From assembly GCA_944320785.1 (NCBI GenBank), contig CALUIR010000005.1, forward strand, positions 22,080-86,079: DNA of 64,000 nt, read 5' to 3'. Below, piece after piece: positions 5,420-57,966 of the stretch (position 1 is the first letter of the stretch; each line of letters opens with the position of its first letter). Made by a program: the position numbers and the translations under genes. The stretch comes from an uncultured Bacteroidaceae bacterium. Its GTDB lineage: Bacteria; Bacteroidota; Bacteroidia; Bacteroidales; Bacteroidaceae. A model generated the notes under the pieces. That model saw only the letters and a list, made by a program, of their open reading frames with translations. It made no database searches and had not been told where the DNA came from.

Positions 5420-5520
5420 GCTAAACTATTTGAGCTGCCAATCTTTTTTCGAGGATATTTCCTCCCGTGCAGGAATATTCTTCCGTTTTCCTGTGCAGGA
5501 AATCCCGTTCACGCAGGTGG

Positions 5521-5597
5521 AAAGTTCATCTTCAGGTTAAGGATGTGCGTCCTCAGCCTAAGGATACACATCCTCAGGCTAAAGATAAAGAAGTTGG
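5521..5597. repeat. 21-bp palindromic tandem repeat element, copy 1
   Basis: Two full 21-bp units (GGATGTGCGTCCTCAGCCTAA and the unit after it) plus partial units at both ends. Each unit carries a GGATnnnnATCC-type and a CCTnAGGCTAAGG-type inverted repeat. The array opens with GTTCATC and closes with GATAAAGAAGTTGG; the same closing sequence ends copy 3, and copy 2 ends similarly. It lies in the 484-bp gap between the divergent transporter and mutA genes; the rest of that gap (5420-5520 and 5598-5781) holds short GGAAnTCC/CATGC-rich motifs also found beside the other copies, and no gene I can support. Confidence 0.8.
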
Positions 5598-5781
5598 CCG
5601 TATGGGCCGGATTTCTTGGCGGACAAACGGAAGTCCCTGCGTGGGCAAAAAGGGTTTCCCATGCGTGCAGCATGAAGTCCTTGCCGGCGGCAATGGCGAT
5701 GGGAAAGCCGGGAATTGACCATTTGACAGATGTTTCCGTGAAAAAAAAGAGAAAACATGGGGGTGTTAATGCTTAATTGGT

Positions 5782-33599: not shown

Positions 33600-33835
33600 G
33601 CCGACCCAACATGTCGGGGGCATGTTGGGGGTACATGATGGGGGTGCAGTGGGGGTACATGTACCCTCACCATAGGGGGAACATGTACCCTCCCCCTTGT
33701 GGGAACATGTTGGGGGGGCATAGGGGGAACATGTACCCTCCCCCTTGGGGGAACATGTTGGGGGGCATAGGGGGAACATGTACCCTCCCACGTTGGGGTA
33801 CATGATGGGTCTGGATGAGGGGACATGTACCCTCC
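33600..33835. repeat. G-rich ACATGT-centred tandem array
   Basis: Three near-identical units start at 33672, 33720 and 33767 (spacing 48 and 47; CATAGGGGGAACATGTACCC followed by TCCCCCTTG and a second AACATGTTGGGGGG block). Before and after them are related shorter pieces, including a perfect 14-bp palindrome GGGTACATGTACCC at 33653-33666 and four G5 runs at 33616-33656. All six frames contain only low-complexity readings, so I regard it as non-coding. It lies between the HU-like gene and the 3' end of hydF. The remaining sequence to 33988 is GC-rich with no gene. Confidence 0.8.
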
Positions 33836-48785: not shown

Positions 48786-48867
48786 AGGGAAAAGCGCATA
48801 TAATGCGTATTTTATATTGTTTCTAAATTGCGTTCACCCGTGTGGAGACTTCTGGCCAGCCGTGCAA

Positions 48868-48966
48868 GAACTTCATCCTTAGGCTGAGGATGTGTATCCT
48901 TAAGCTAAGGATGTGTATCTTTAGCCTAAAGATGTGTATCCTTAGCCTAAAGATAAAGAATCTAGC
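48868..48966. repeat. 21-bp palindromic tandem repeat element, copy 2
   Basis: Three contiguous 21-bp units (GGATGTGTATCCTTAAGCTAA, then GGATGTGTATCTTTAGCCTAA, then AGATGTGTATCCTTAGCCTAA) between a leading GAACTTCATCCTTAGGCTGA and a closing AGATAAAGAATCTAG. It lies between the divergent hydB and LRR-protein genes (gap 48732-49177). Downstream, 48980-49080 shares CTTGGGCGGACAA and CGGAAGTCC motifs with the flank of copy 1. No gene is supported in the gap: the 82-codon frame across it is a consequence of the 21-bp periodicity. Confidence 0.82.
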
Positions 48967-49120
48967 CGCATGGATGAGGCTTCTTGGGCGGACAAGTCGG
49001 GTTTGTCTCCCGCATGGGCGGAAGTCCTCGCCGGGCAGGCCGGTGCCATCTTCCCTGCTTCCCCGCTATGCTTGTGCGGGCTTTTTTTGAAGTTTATGTG
49101 ATAAAAAGGCGCGGATTAGC

Positions 49121-56642: not shown

Positions 56643-56787
56643 GCGTGATTATATATAATATAAAATAGGTGTGCAAGACGGGATTCTGCAATCCCGCCTT
56701 CTTTTTTCCTTGGCGGGGGCTTGGAAATCCCGTTCGCATGGGCTGGAATTTCTGTCCATGCGGATGGCAAATCCGGCTTTCCCGTGC
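56643..56787. other. Flank of repeat copy 3
   Basis: No gene. Contains GGAAATCCCG, GGAATTTC and GCATGG/CCATGC motifs also seen beside copies 1 and 2; a GGCGGGATTG...GGAATC-type imperfect hairpin near 56680-56700 could terminate tdh. Confidence 0.35.
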
Positions 56788-56887
56788 AACTTCTTTATCT
56801 TTAGGTTAGAGATACACATCCTTAGGCTAGAGATGCACATCCTTAACTTAAGGATATGCATCCTTAGGTTGAGGATAAAGAAGTTGG
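56788..56887. repeat. 21-bp palindromic tandem repeat element, copy 3
   Basis: Three 21-bp units between symmetrical ends: the array opens with AACTTCTTTATC and closes with its inverse GATAAAGAAGTT. Units (GATACACATCCTTAGGCTAGA, GATGCACATCCTTAACTTAAG, GATATGCATCCTTAGGTTGAG) are more diverged than in copy 2. It lies between tdh and murB, 34 nt before the murB -7 box. Confidence 0.82.
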
Positions 56888-56896
56888 CTGCATGAC

Positions 56897-56928
56897 TTGA
56901 AGTTATTGCCGGGAAAAGTGTATTTTTG
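56897..56928 (+). promoter_or_regulatory. Promoter of murB
   Basis: TTG at 56897-56899, 21 nt, TATTTTTG at 56921-56928; ATG 22 nt later at 56950. Confidence 0.55.
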
Positions 56929-56949
56929 CAGCCTATATCAGCGAAGAAG

Positions 56950-57966
56950 ATGGAAAGGCACAATCATTATTCCCTGCTTGCCCGCAACACGTTTGGCATC
57001 GATGCCCGTGCGGAAGCCTTTGTGGAATATGGCACGGTGGAGGAGTTGCGGCAGTTGCTGTCGGGCAAGGAGGCTTTGCCCCTTCCTTTCCTGCATATCG
57101 GCGCGGGCAGCAACCTGCTGTTCGTGTCCGACTTTGAGGGGACGGTGTTCCATTCGGCCATCAAAGGCATTGATGTGGTGGGGGAGACGGAAGATTCCGT
57201 TTGCCTGCGCGTCGGGGCCGGAGAACTGTGGGACGATTTTGTAAGCGTTTGCGTGAGGCGCGGGTGGCATGGCGTGGAGAACCTTTCGCTTATCCCGGGC
57301 GAAGTAGGTGCCGCTGCCGTGCAGAACATTGGCGCATACGGCGTGGAGGCGAAGGATGTGATAGGGAAGGTGCATGCGGTGGAAATCCGGACGGGGCGGA
57401 GGAAGGTTTTCCTGAACCGTGATTGCCGTTATTCCTACCGGCAAAGCATTTTCAAGGGCGAACAGAAAGGAAAGTATGCCGTGACGCATGTGGATTTCAC
57501 GTTGCAGAAGGCGGGGGCGTTCCGTCTGGATTACGGGAACCTTCGGGATGAGTTGCGGAAGTATCCGGAAGTGAACTTGGAAAACGTGCGCCGGGCCGTC
57601 ATTGCTATCCGCGAAGCCAAGCTTCCTGACCCGAAGGTGACGGGCAATGCGGGCAGTTTTTTCATGAACCCGGTAGTGCCGGCCGATGTGTATGGCCGTT
57701 TGCGCCAGGAATACCCGGATATGCCTTGCTATCCGGCGGACGGCGGCTGCGTGAAACTCCCGGCGGCATGGCTGATTGACCGTTGCGGCTGGAAGGGGAA
57801 AACCGTAGGGCGCGCCGGGGTACACGACCGGCAGGCATTGGTGTTAGTGAACCGGGGCGGGGCTTCCGGCAGGGACATTGTGCGATTGTCTGAAGAGATA
57901 TGCCGGTCTGTGCAGGAAAAGTTCGGGATAGGGCTTCGCCCGGAAGTGAATTTCATAGGAGGATGA
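56950..57966 (+). CDS. murB: UDP-N-acetylenolpyruvoylglucosamine reductase (type I)
   Basis: Cytosolic FAD enzyme of peptidoglycan precursor synthesis (NADPH reduction of UDP-GlcNAc-enolpyruvate). 338 residues from ATG 56950, preferred over 56926 because the latter lies inside the -7 box. Seen: ARNTFGIDARAEAFVEY, FAD loop GAGSNLLFVSDFEG (about 51-64), LSLIPGEVGAAAVQNIGAYG (about 113-132), catalytic Ser in NAGSFFMNPVV and the closing LRPEVNFIG with the catalytic Glu. Length and C-terminal extension match the E. coli-type enzyme. Four nt before the next gene. Confidence 0.95.
   Translation: MERHNHYSLLARNTFGIDARAEAFVEYGTVEELRQLLSGKEALPLPFLHIGAGSNLLFVSDFEGTVFHSAIKGIDVVGETEDSVCLRVGAGELWDDFVSVCVRRGWHGVENLSLIPGEVGAAAVQNIGAYGVEAKDVIGKVHAVEIRTGRRKVFLNRDCRYSYRQSIFKGEQKGKYAVTHVDFTLQKAGAFRLDYGNLRDELRKYPEVNLENVRRAVIAIREAKLPDPKVTGNAGSFFMNPVVPADVYGRLRQEYPDMPCYPADGGCVKLPAAWLIDRCGWKGKTVGRAGVHDRQALVLVNRGGASGRDIVRLSEEICRSVQEKFGIGLRPEVNFIGG

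Follow-up and report, generated by a model that had tools for sequence, protein, structure and literature searches.

A dispersed palindromic element of Bacteroidaceae conserved by purine/pyrimidine class

The 64 kb stretch of Bacteroidaceae DNA analysed here (the window) contains three copies of a palindromic repeat element whose family is real and abundant in the source genome (G000, a 2.57-Mb draft that is 84% complete, probably from a gut bacterium). In kind the element is near REPINs and MITEs, yet it does not pass all the tests that define them, and it is conserved in an unusual way. The majority of known DNA sites keep their bases, whereas over ~80 bp of this element transitions are mostly tolerated and transversions almost excluded. 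No description of it was found in the open-access PMC papers searched, and there is a fair chance that it is something new. The best explanation, to which we assign a probability of roughly 55%, is a dispersed, non-coding MITE/REPIN-like element that carries dyad sites on one face of the DNA and is read as a duplex by a dyad-symmetric, probably oligomerizing protein.

Copies in the window

Copy 1 (positions 5521–5597) is a shortened form with three S-centred palindromes, and copies 2 (48866–48963) and 3 (56787–56885) are full forms with four; no strand is assigned to these copies or to their outer units. The S centres of copy 2 are at 48883, 48904, 48925 and 48946, its RYRY centres at 48892–48895, 48913–48916 and 48934–48937, and its ends read ACTTCATC and GATAAAGAA. 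The inverted ends of copy 3 are AACTTCTTTATC and GATAAAGAAGTT. A profile model of 39 sequences, which includes copies 2 and 3 and both copies from the sister genome G001 and excludes copy 1, scores copies 1 to 3 at 56.7, 94.2 and 87.5 bits. An unfiltered search with the profile gives bimodal scores in the window, with three sites at 55–94 bits and all else at or below 4.2 bits.

The initial annotation had described two to three tandem 21-bp palindromic units at three intergenic sites. Tandem palindromes are present at all three, and chance is excluded by dinucleotide shuffling, as the 25-nt unit pattern has 13 matches in the window and a mean of 0.00 in 100 shuffles; TRF reports 21-bp arrays at 48875–48954, 56797–56845 and 56838–56877. 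The unit count is right when full periods are counted (2, 3 and 3), but the S-centred palindromes number 3, 4 and 4. Of the site limits, 5521–5597 stands; 48868–48966 moves to approximately 48866–48963 and 56788–56887 to approximately 56787–56885. Copy 1 is flanked by a YidE-type antiporter gene and a methylmalonyl-CoA mutase gene, copy 2 by a NuoF-like gene and one that weakly resembles LRR adhesins, and copy 3 by an epimerase-like gene and murB.

Outer units border the copies. To the left of copy 2 (48837–48865) they are of the CCSNRYRRRAANYYC type, ~22 bp apart and less strictly conserved; to its right (48964–49037) the same type is inverted. Both are seen in the column profile of 52 copies and with a permissive pattern, which also yields many background matches (at 48837 and 48859, and on the minus strand at 48999 and 49021). 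By this same permissive pattern, copy 1 has matches at 5490 and 5512 on its left (5490–5520) and four inverted units, 21–22 bp apart, on its right (5598–5690; minus-strand matches at 5609, 5630, 5652 and 5674), and copy 3 has one match, at 56759, on its left (56759–56786).

A G-rich tandem array elsewhere in the window (33609–33835), with a GGGGGAACATGTACCCTCCCC-type unit, periods of 24, 47 and 72 and a palindrome around ACATGT, is unrelated to the element.

The family in the source genome

Further copies, for which the initial annotation had proposed a genome-wide scan, are abundant, and the family extends far beyond three. The unit pattern has 165 forward and 155 reverse matches in G000, with zero for a reversed-pattern control. 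Sequence was taken from 57 further loci. Of 65 clusters, five with a single core look like chance, and 60 elements remain, the three of the window among them; three more places match an end unit.

Exactly four S-centred palindromes, YYYARSYTRRR, are found at 21-bp spacing in 52 of the 60 elements, and three GATRYRYATC palindromes sit between them. The other eight have one to three palindromes, one of them with irregular spacing. The ends are inverted (RAASTYYATC/GATRRASTTY); a longer end, TTCTTTATC/GATAAAGAA, occurs in G000 as well. The core is ~98 bp in length; with the weaker outer units, which are 21–22 bp in size and found on both sides, the element reaches ~200 bp or more in G000, where the 52-copy profile traces it from about −80 to +150 relative to the core. 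In another carrier, G014, the outer part appears by eye to be without evident conservation.

The genes around 59 copies (the single-palindrome copy L035 is left out) are tandem in 26 cases, divergent in 22 and convergent in 10, with one undetermined. The corresponding tandem, divergent and convergent numbers for gaps of 150–900 bp in the window and 240 kb of G001 are 28, 18 and 11, and comparison with this baseline shows no clear preference of the 59 copies for a gene orientation or a gene end. A long predicted ORF overlaps the element in seven of the 59; these ORFs are provisionally read as having over-extended starts.

Conservation by base class

Among 52 copies of G000, a set selected for four recognizable palindromes with up to two mismatches allowed per 17-nt core, a selection that lowers violations, 3 of 4004 core bases violate the purine/pyrimidine class and 546 depart from the majority base within their class (~180 to 1). 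As two mismatches per core were tolerated, class conservation within the set is not forced by the selection. One two-core copy with class violations (L046) lies outside the set. Positions that mirror each other oppose purine to pyrimidine almost always. The S positions exchange C and G freely, which is a transversion, and are other than G or C in 2 of 208 cases, while the C of ATC is constant in 207 of 208 and the G of GAT in 206 of 208. The central YR steps are mainly TG or CA, seldom CG or TA. In all three dyads the 12-mer RGATRYRYATCY has a steadier GC count than shuffled sequences do (0 of 5000 shuffles as low, p = 0.047 and p = 0.004).

Pairwise identity of the cores in G000 is 79%. Nearest-neighbour identity (0.877) is about that of independent columns (0.869), and the copies therefore look transition-saturated, without sign of a recent burst. 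Class-only conservation may serve as a marker for unannotated repeat families that searches by base identity may miss, copies of the present family being only ~79% alike.

The pattern is also seen in other genomes. Across 26 copies, of which G001 contributes two, 3 class violations occur among 902 bases outside the 52 nt used for searching. By genome, the violations are 9 of 847 in G023 (11 copies), 5 of 385 in G337 (five copies) and 30 of 1386 in G014 (18 copies), the last being more than in the G000 set.

Related genomes and dialects

The sister species G001 was compared over 240 kb of its ~2.7 Mb, and six G000 loci have collinear flanks there. The element is in both genomes at two of these (L043 and L078), and three are clearly empty in G001 (L063, L067 and L077), which answers the question, raised by the initial annotation, of syntenic gaps that lack the element in a relative. 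The G001 counterpart of the sixth, L064, shows no recognizable element. The profile search finds two intact copies only in the 240 kb, both of them in the model.

Between G000 and G001 the 80-nt cores of L043 and L078 differ by 22 and 16 transitions and by no transversion, as against 260 transitions and 164 transversions in coding DNA adjoining L043 (p = 3.7e-8 against the element cores). Over 104 columns that include the ends, the transition to transversion counts are 24:1 and 20:4, with the transversions at the ends. Judging from these alignments, class constraint is maintained in place over time at the two shared loci.

An exact 52-nt pattern occurs in 23 stretches of named records, which comprise Bacteroides, Phocaeicola and Paraprevotella genomes, one Parabacteroides contig, Bacteroides sp. 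ET71 and Bacteroidales bacterium SW299; the records of ET71 and SW299 are not marked as MAGs. With a sequence-only profile, 45 of 399 family genomes, spread over 13 of 30 genera, give a match, in 23 cases at E<1e-8; this search scored at most nine candidates per genome and yields presence, not copy numbers. In a sample of 295 genomes from the order, the profile hits are G000, G014 and seven further genomes, the last seven all at 2e-6 or weaker. Those of the seven that were examined resemble unrelated repeats or nothing clear, and for this reason the weakest of the 45 family matches may be chance.

The unit number elsewhere is four in 22 of 23 elements of one set and in 34 of 39 of another. Five units are found in L197 (G023), L212 (G337) and L234 (G014). 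A 21-bp phased array at L190 (G303) has a non-palindromic TCTYCCGCCTARGAAT-like unit and is possibly a half-dialect or a separate family.

Other genomes carry dialects of the same length and 21-bp spacing, namely YTTAGSCTAAR, CCAARSYTTGG (G231, G157), GCAAGSCTTGC (G097), CAAARSCTTYG (G160) and TTTYAGnYTRAAA (G035). Those of G231, G157, G097, G160 and G035 are drawn from two to five copies each, in a register chosen by palindrome score, which biases them toward palindromy; some, the two-copy dialect of G097 among them, are partly palindromic only. Between dialects, the letters that flank the centre are exchanged by transversion on either side (T..A vs A..T). The G000 dialect recurs in genera g14, g9, g23 and g3. 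Congeners examined in g14, g9 and g3 have a different form (G362, G160, G097), and many show none.

Proposed recognition as a duplex

The element is a symmetric dyad array: four inner S-centred palindromes follow one another at 21 bp, or two helical turns, with an RYRY-centred palindrome halfway between neighbours (three in all) and inverted ends. A dyad-symmetric protein would occupy the palindromes every half-unit (10.5 bp) along one face of the duplex, and would oligomerize or wrap the DNA. It would read purine/pyrimidine order and local strength and not base identity, and array and reader may co-evolve, giving a genome-specific dialect. The element would spread as a non-autonomous mobile unit. 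Bound copies may benefit the host, by chromosome organization or local transcription control, or unreadable copies may be lost fast; one or the other is suggested by the few decayed copies seen. A protein-binding array with its palindromes on the same DNA face had been put forward in the initial annotation, and the 21-bp phasing is consistent with it. Class-only conservation, the near-constant unit number and the dialects go beyond what that annotation noted.

The class-only signature is shared by about sixty copies in a single genome and by relatives belonging to several genera, and it points to a reader that works by indirect readout. The family would then be a natural mutational scan of an indirect-readout site and a route to its reader. 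A bolder proposal is made tentatively: purine/pyrimidine order and dyad spacing, in place of base identity, may be the heritable content of a genome-wide signal for a lineage-specific, filament-forming reader of duplex shape and strength, with array and reader switching dialects jointly. If true, this would be a protein-DNA recognition system of a kind not described before.

The array might instead be a topological or chromosome-structuring site, either gyrase-wrapping in the manner of BIME-2 or a nucleation point for a nucleoid protein, chosen by the bendability that 21-bp phasing confers. BIME elements are linked to gyrase. The two-turn phasing over ~200 bp, with weaker outer units in G000, would suit such a site, as would the steady local GC, the YR-step preference and the indifference to gene orientation. 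However, gyrase is to our knowledge universal and the element is patchy (45 of 399 family genomes), and the dialects suggest a changing reader. We regard this possibility as unlikely.

Folding and coding potential

Against dinucleotide shuffles, each of the three window copies folds much more stably on both strands (z = −5.5 to −9.5 for the six strands), and the class-only conservation could in principle reflect a folded nucleic acid, either an array of RNA attenuator or terminator hairpins or a DNA cruciform, in which G-T and A-C mismatches are tolerated. The purine–pyrimidine opposition of mirrored positions, and the persistence of palindromes between dialects despite changed letters, are in line with this. 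In addition, palindromic candidate RNAs of 80–132 bp, a size similar to that of the element, have been predicted mostly or only in Bacteroidetes (PMC8040213).

When copies are compared with column-shuffled versions, however, the real ones fold worse (z = +4.4 to +5.1 for the core and +2.5 to +2.7 with flanks), by ~3 kcal/mol as RNA and ~2 as DNA, on both strands. The local and global palindrome pairs show no pairing-type covariation within the G000 copies. Where pair associations are significant, they disfavour Watson-Crick pairs or keep strong and weak bases in balance; at positions 34/45, for example, the non-pairing combinations are preferred (GT 30, AC 14, GC 4, AT 4). The window has no Rfam match at gathering scores, and the lack of a clear gene-end or orientation preference also speaks against a folded form, which is improbable as the source of the class pattern. 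As the selected trait, an RNA hairpin or cruciform is rejected on the missing covariation and on folding below column-shuffled copies. The alternating RNA hairpins and transcription attenuator that the initial annotation had suggested are at odds with the same results and with the absence of a clear gap-orientation preference.

A single frame runs through the core without a stop (ATR YRY ATC YYY AGS YTR RRG). Departures from the majority comprise 400 replacement and 118 silent changes in this frame, compared with 2178 replacement and 1098 silent possible transitions. Silent sites are uneven, with the C of ATC and the G of RRG nearly invariant and those in YTR and YRY variable. Silent changes are thus not favoured, and protein coding is rejected; the synonymous bias that the initial annotation had named as grounds for abandoning a repeat element is not seen. 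Copies do generate spurious ORFs with FRLRMCIFRLK-like heptads, at window positions 5467–5718, 48842–49090 and 56649–56963, at L031:1913–2167 and at other places, and an annotation pipeline could take these for proteins.

With the folding and codon readings eliminated, readout of the duplex remains.

The purine/pyrimidine pattern may also be mutational in origin, if copies are subject, as they are made or afterwards, to a RIP-like or deaminase-like process that causes transitions alone. The great excess of within-class departures would be expected from this, and central steps that are mostly TG or CA are what CpG-type decay would leave. Yet the ATC cytosine and the GAT guanine, which are no different as bases, are nearly fixed, and C and G interchange at the S positions. 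Transversions also distinguish the dialects, on either side of the dyad, and the two orthologous pairs retain the pattern. A mutational origin is quite improbable.

Mobility

A dispersed, REP-like non-autonomous element, as first suggested, fits the many copies and the empty sites of the sister genome. G014 has two versions, 94% identical, of a 160-bp block that includes the element (L224:2416–2573 and L231:2447–2606); their surroundings are unrelated, and this is the only duplication seen among the loci compared that extends beyond the core. Empty sites, patchiness and this duplication argue for movement, although the single recent duplication could be due to recombination instead of transposition. 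No target-site duplication is visible around the G014 duplicate, and the flanks of the 52 old copies contain no fixed-position duplication of a 2- to 5-mer above six permutations of the flanks. With target-site duplication absent, transposition is putative, and movement is further opposed by the Y1 transposase that was not found in six of nine carriers, by the lack of a common gene next to copies and by the lack of matches in the viral, plasmid and phage collections.

No partner protein and no shared transposase were found among 555 neighbouring ORFs in five genomes and at five further loci; the neighbours are mostly housekeeping and SusC-type coincidences, together with spurious ORFs made by the element. 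Viral contigs gave 0 exact matches to two degenerate patterns, and blastn of copy 2 gave no match in plasmids and phages. Few decayed copies were seen, in searches not designed for badly decayed ones. Their scarcity is unlike ordinary MITEs and favours function over mere parasitism.

Relation to known repeat elements

Like REP, BIME and REPIN sequences with their RAYTs, the element is a short palindromic intergenic repeat with mirrored units, present in tens to hundreds of copies. It differs in being a 21-bp phased array of ~98 bp with a near-fixed unit number, in its conservation by class and in that stable folding is disfavoured. REPs are described as 20–50-nt stem-loops preceded by a GTAG tag (PMC8266576, PMC3733652), with CGTC as an alternative tag (PMC3733652); the length and unit structure of the element are unlike these, and near its ends in the 52 copies GTAG is found twice, CTAC twice, CGTC twice and GACG five times. 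Mobilization as a REP/REPIN system by a Y1 (RAYT) transposase is very unlikely: although the element is dispersed, with genome-specific variants, and a Y1 domain is found in three of nine carriers tested (G014, partial, G268 and G399), Y1_Tnp (PF01797) was not found in the other six (G000 and G001, which are 84–85% complete, G117, G023, G337 and G255) and is found in two of nine other genomes, so that the RAYT link is unsupported across the 18.

Pneumococcal BOX elements (boxA-boxB(n)-boxC) are likewise dispersed modular repeats with a tandem internal module; unlike the near-fixed four of the present element (52 of 60), their module number is variable, and the present element is palindromic throughout and has an unrelated host (PMC3049150).

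MITEs and Correia-type elements share with the element its short length, inverted ends, non-coding nature, intergenic location and empty orthologous sites. The element differs from them by its internal phased array and few decayed copies, and no target duplication was detected for it, nor a mother transposon among the neighbouring ORFs covered.

Partition centromeres contain ~20-bp repeats that are bound by ParR-type proteins. By analogy, the two-turn spacing, few tandem sites and likely oligomerizing, dyad-symmetric reader would be similar. Unlike these centromeres, the element is present in dozens of chromosomal copies.

Two minor observations concern single copies. In two genera a carboxyltransferase-like gene, the same in both, has a copy downstream (L084 in G000 and L089 in G117), which may be chance or an old shared site. 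Another, L102, is in a contig binned to Parabacteroides (record CASEGC010000135), a genus placed in another family, and represents either horizontal transfer or a binning error.
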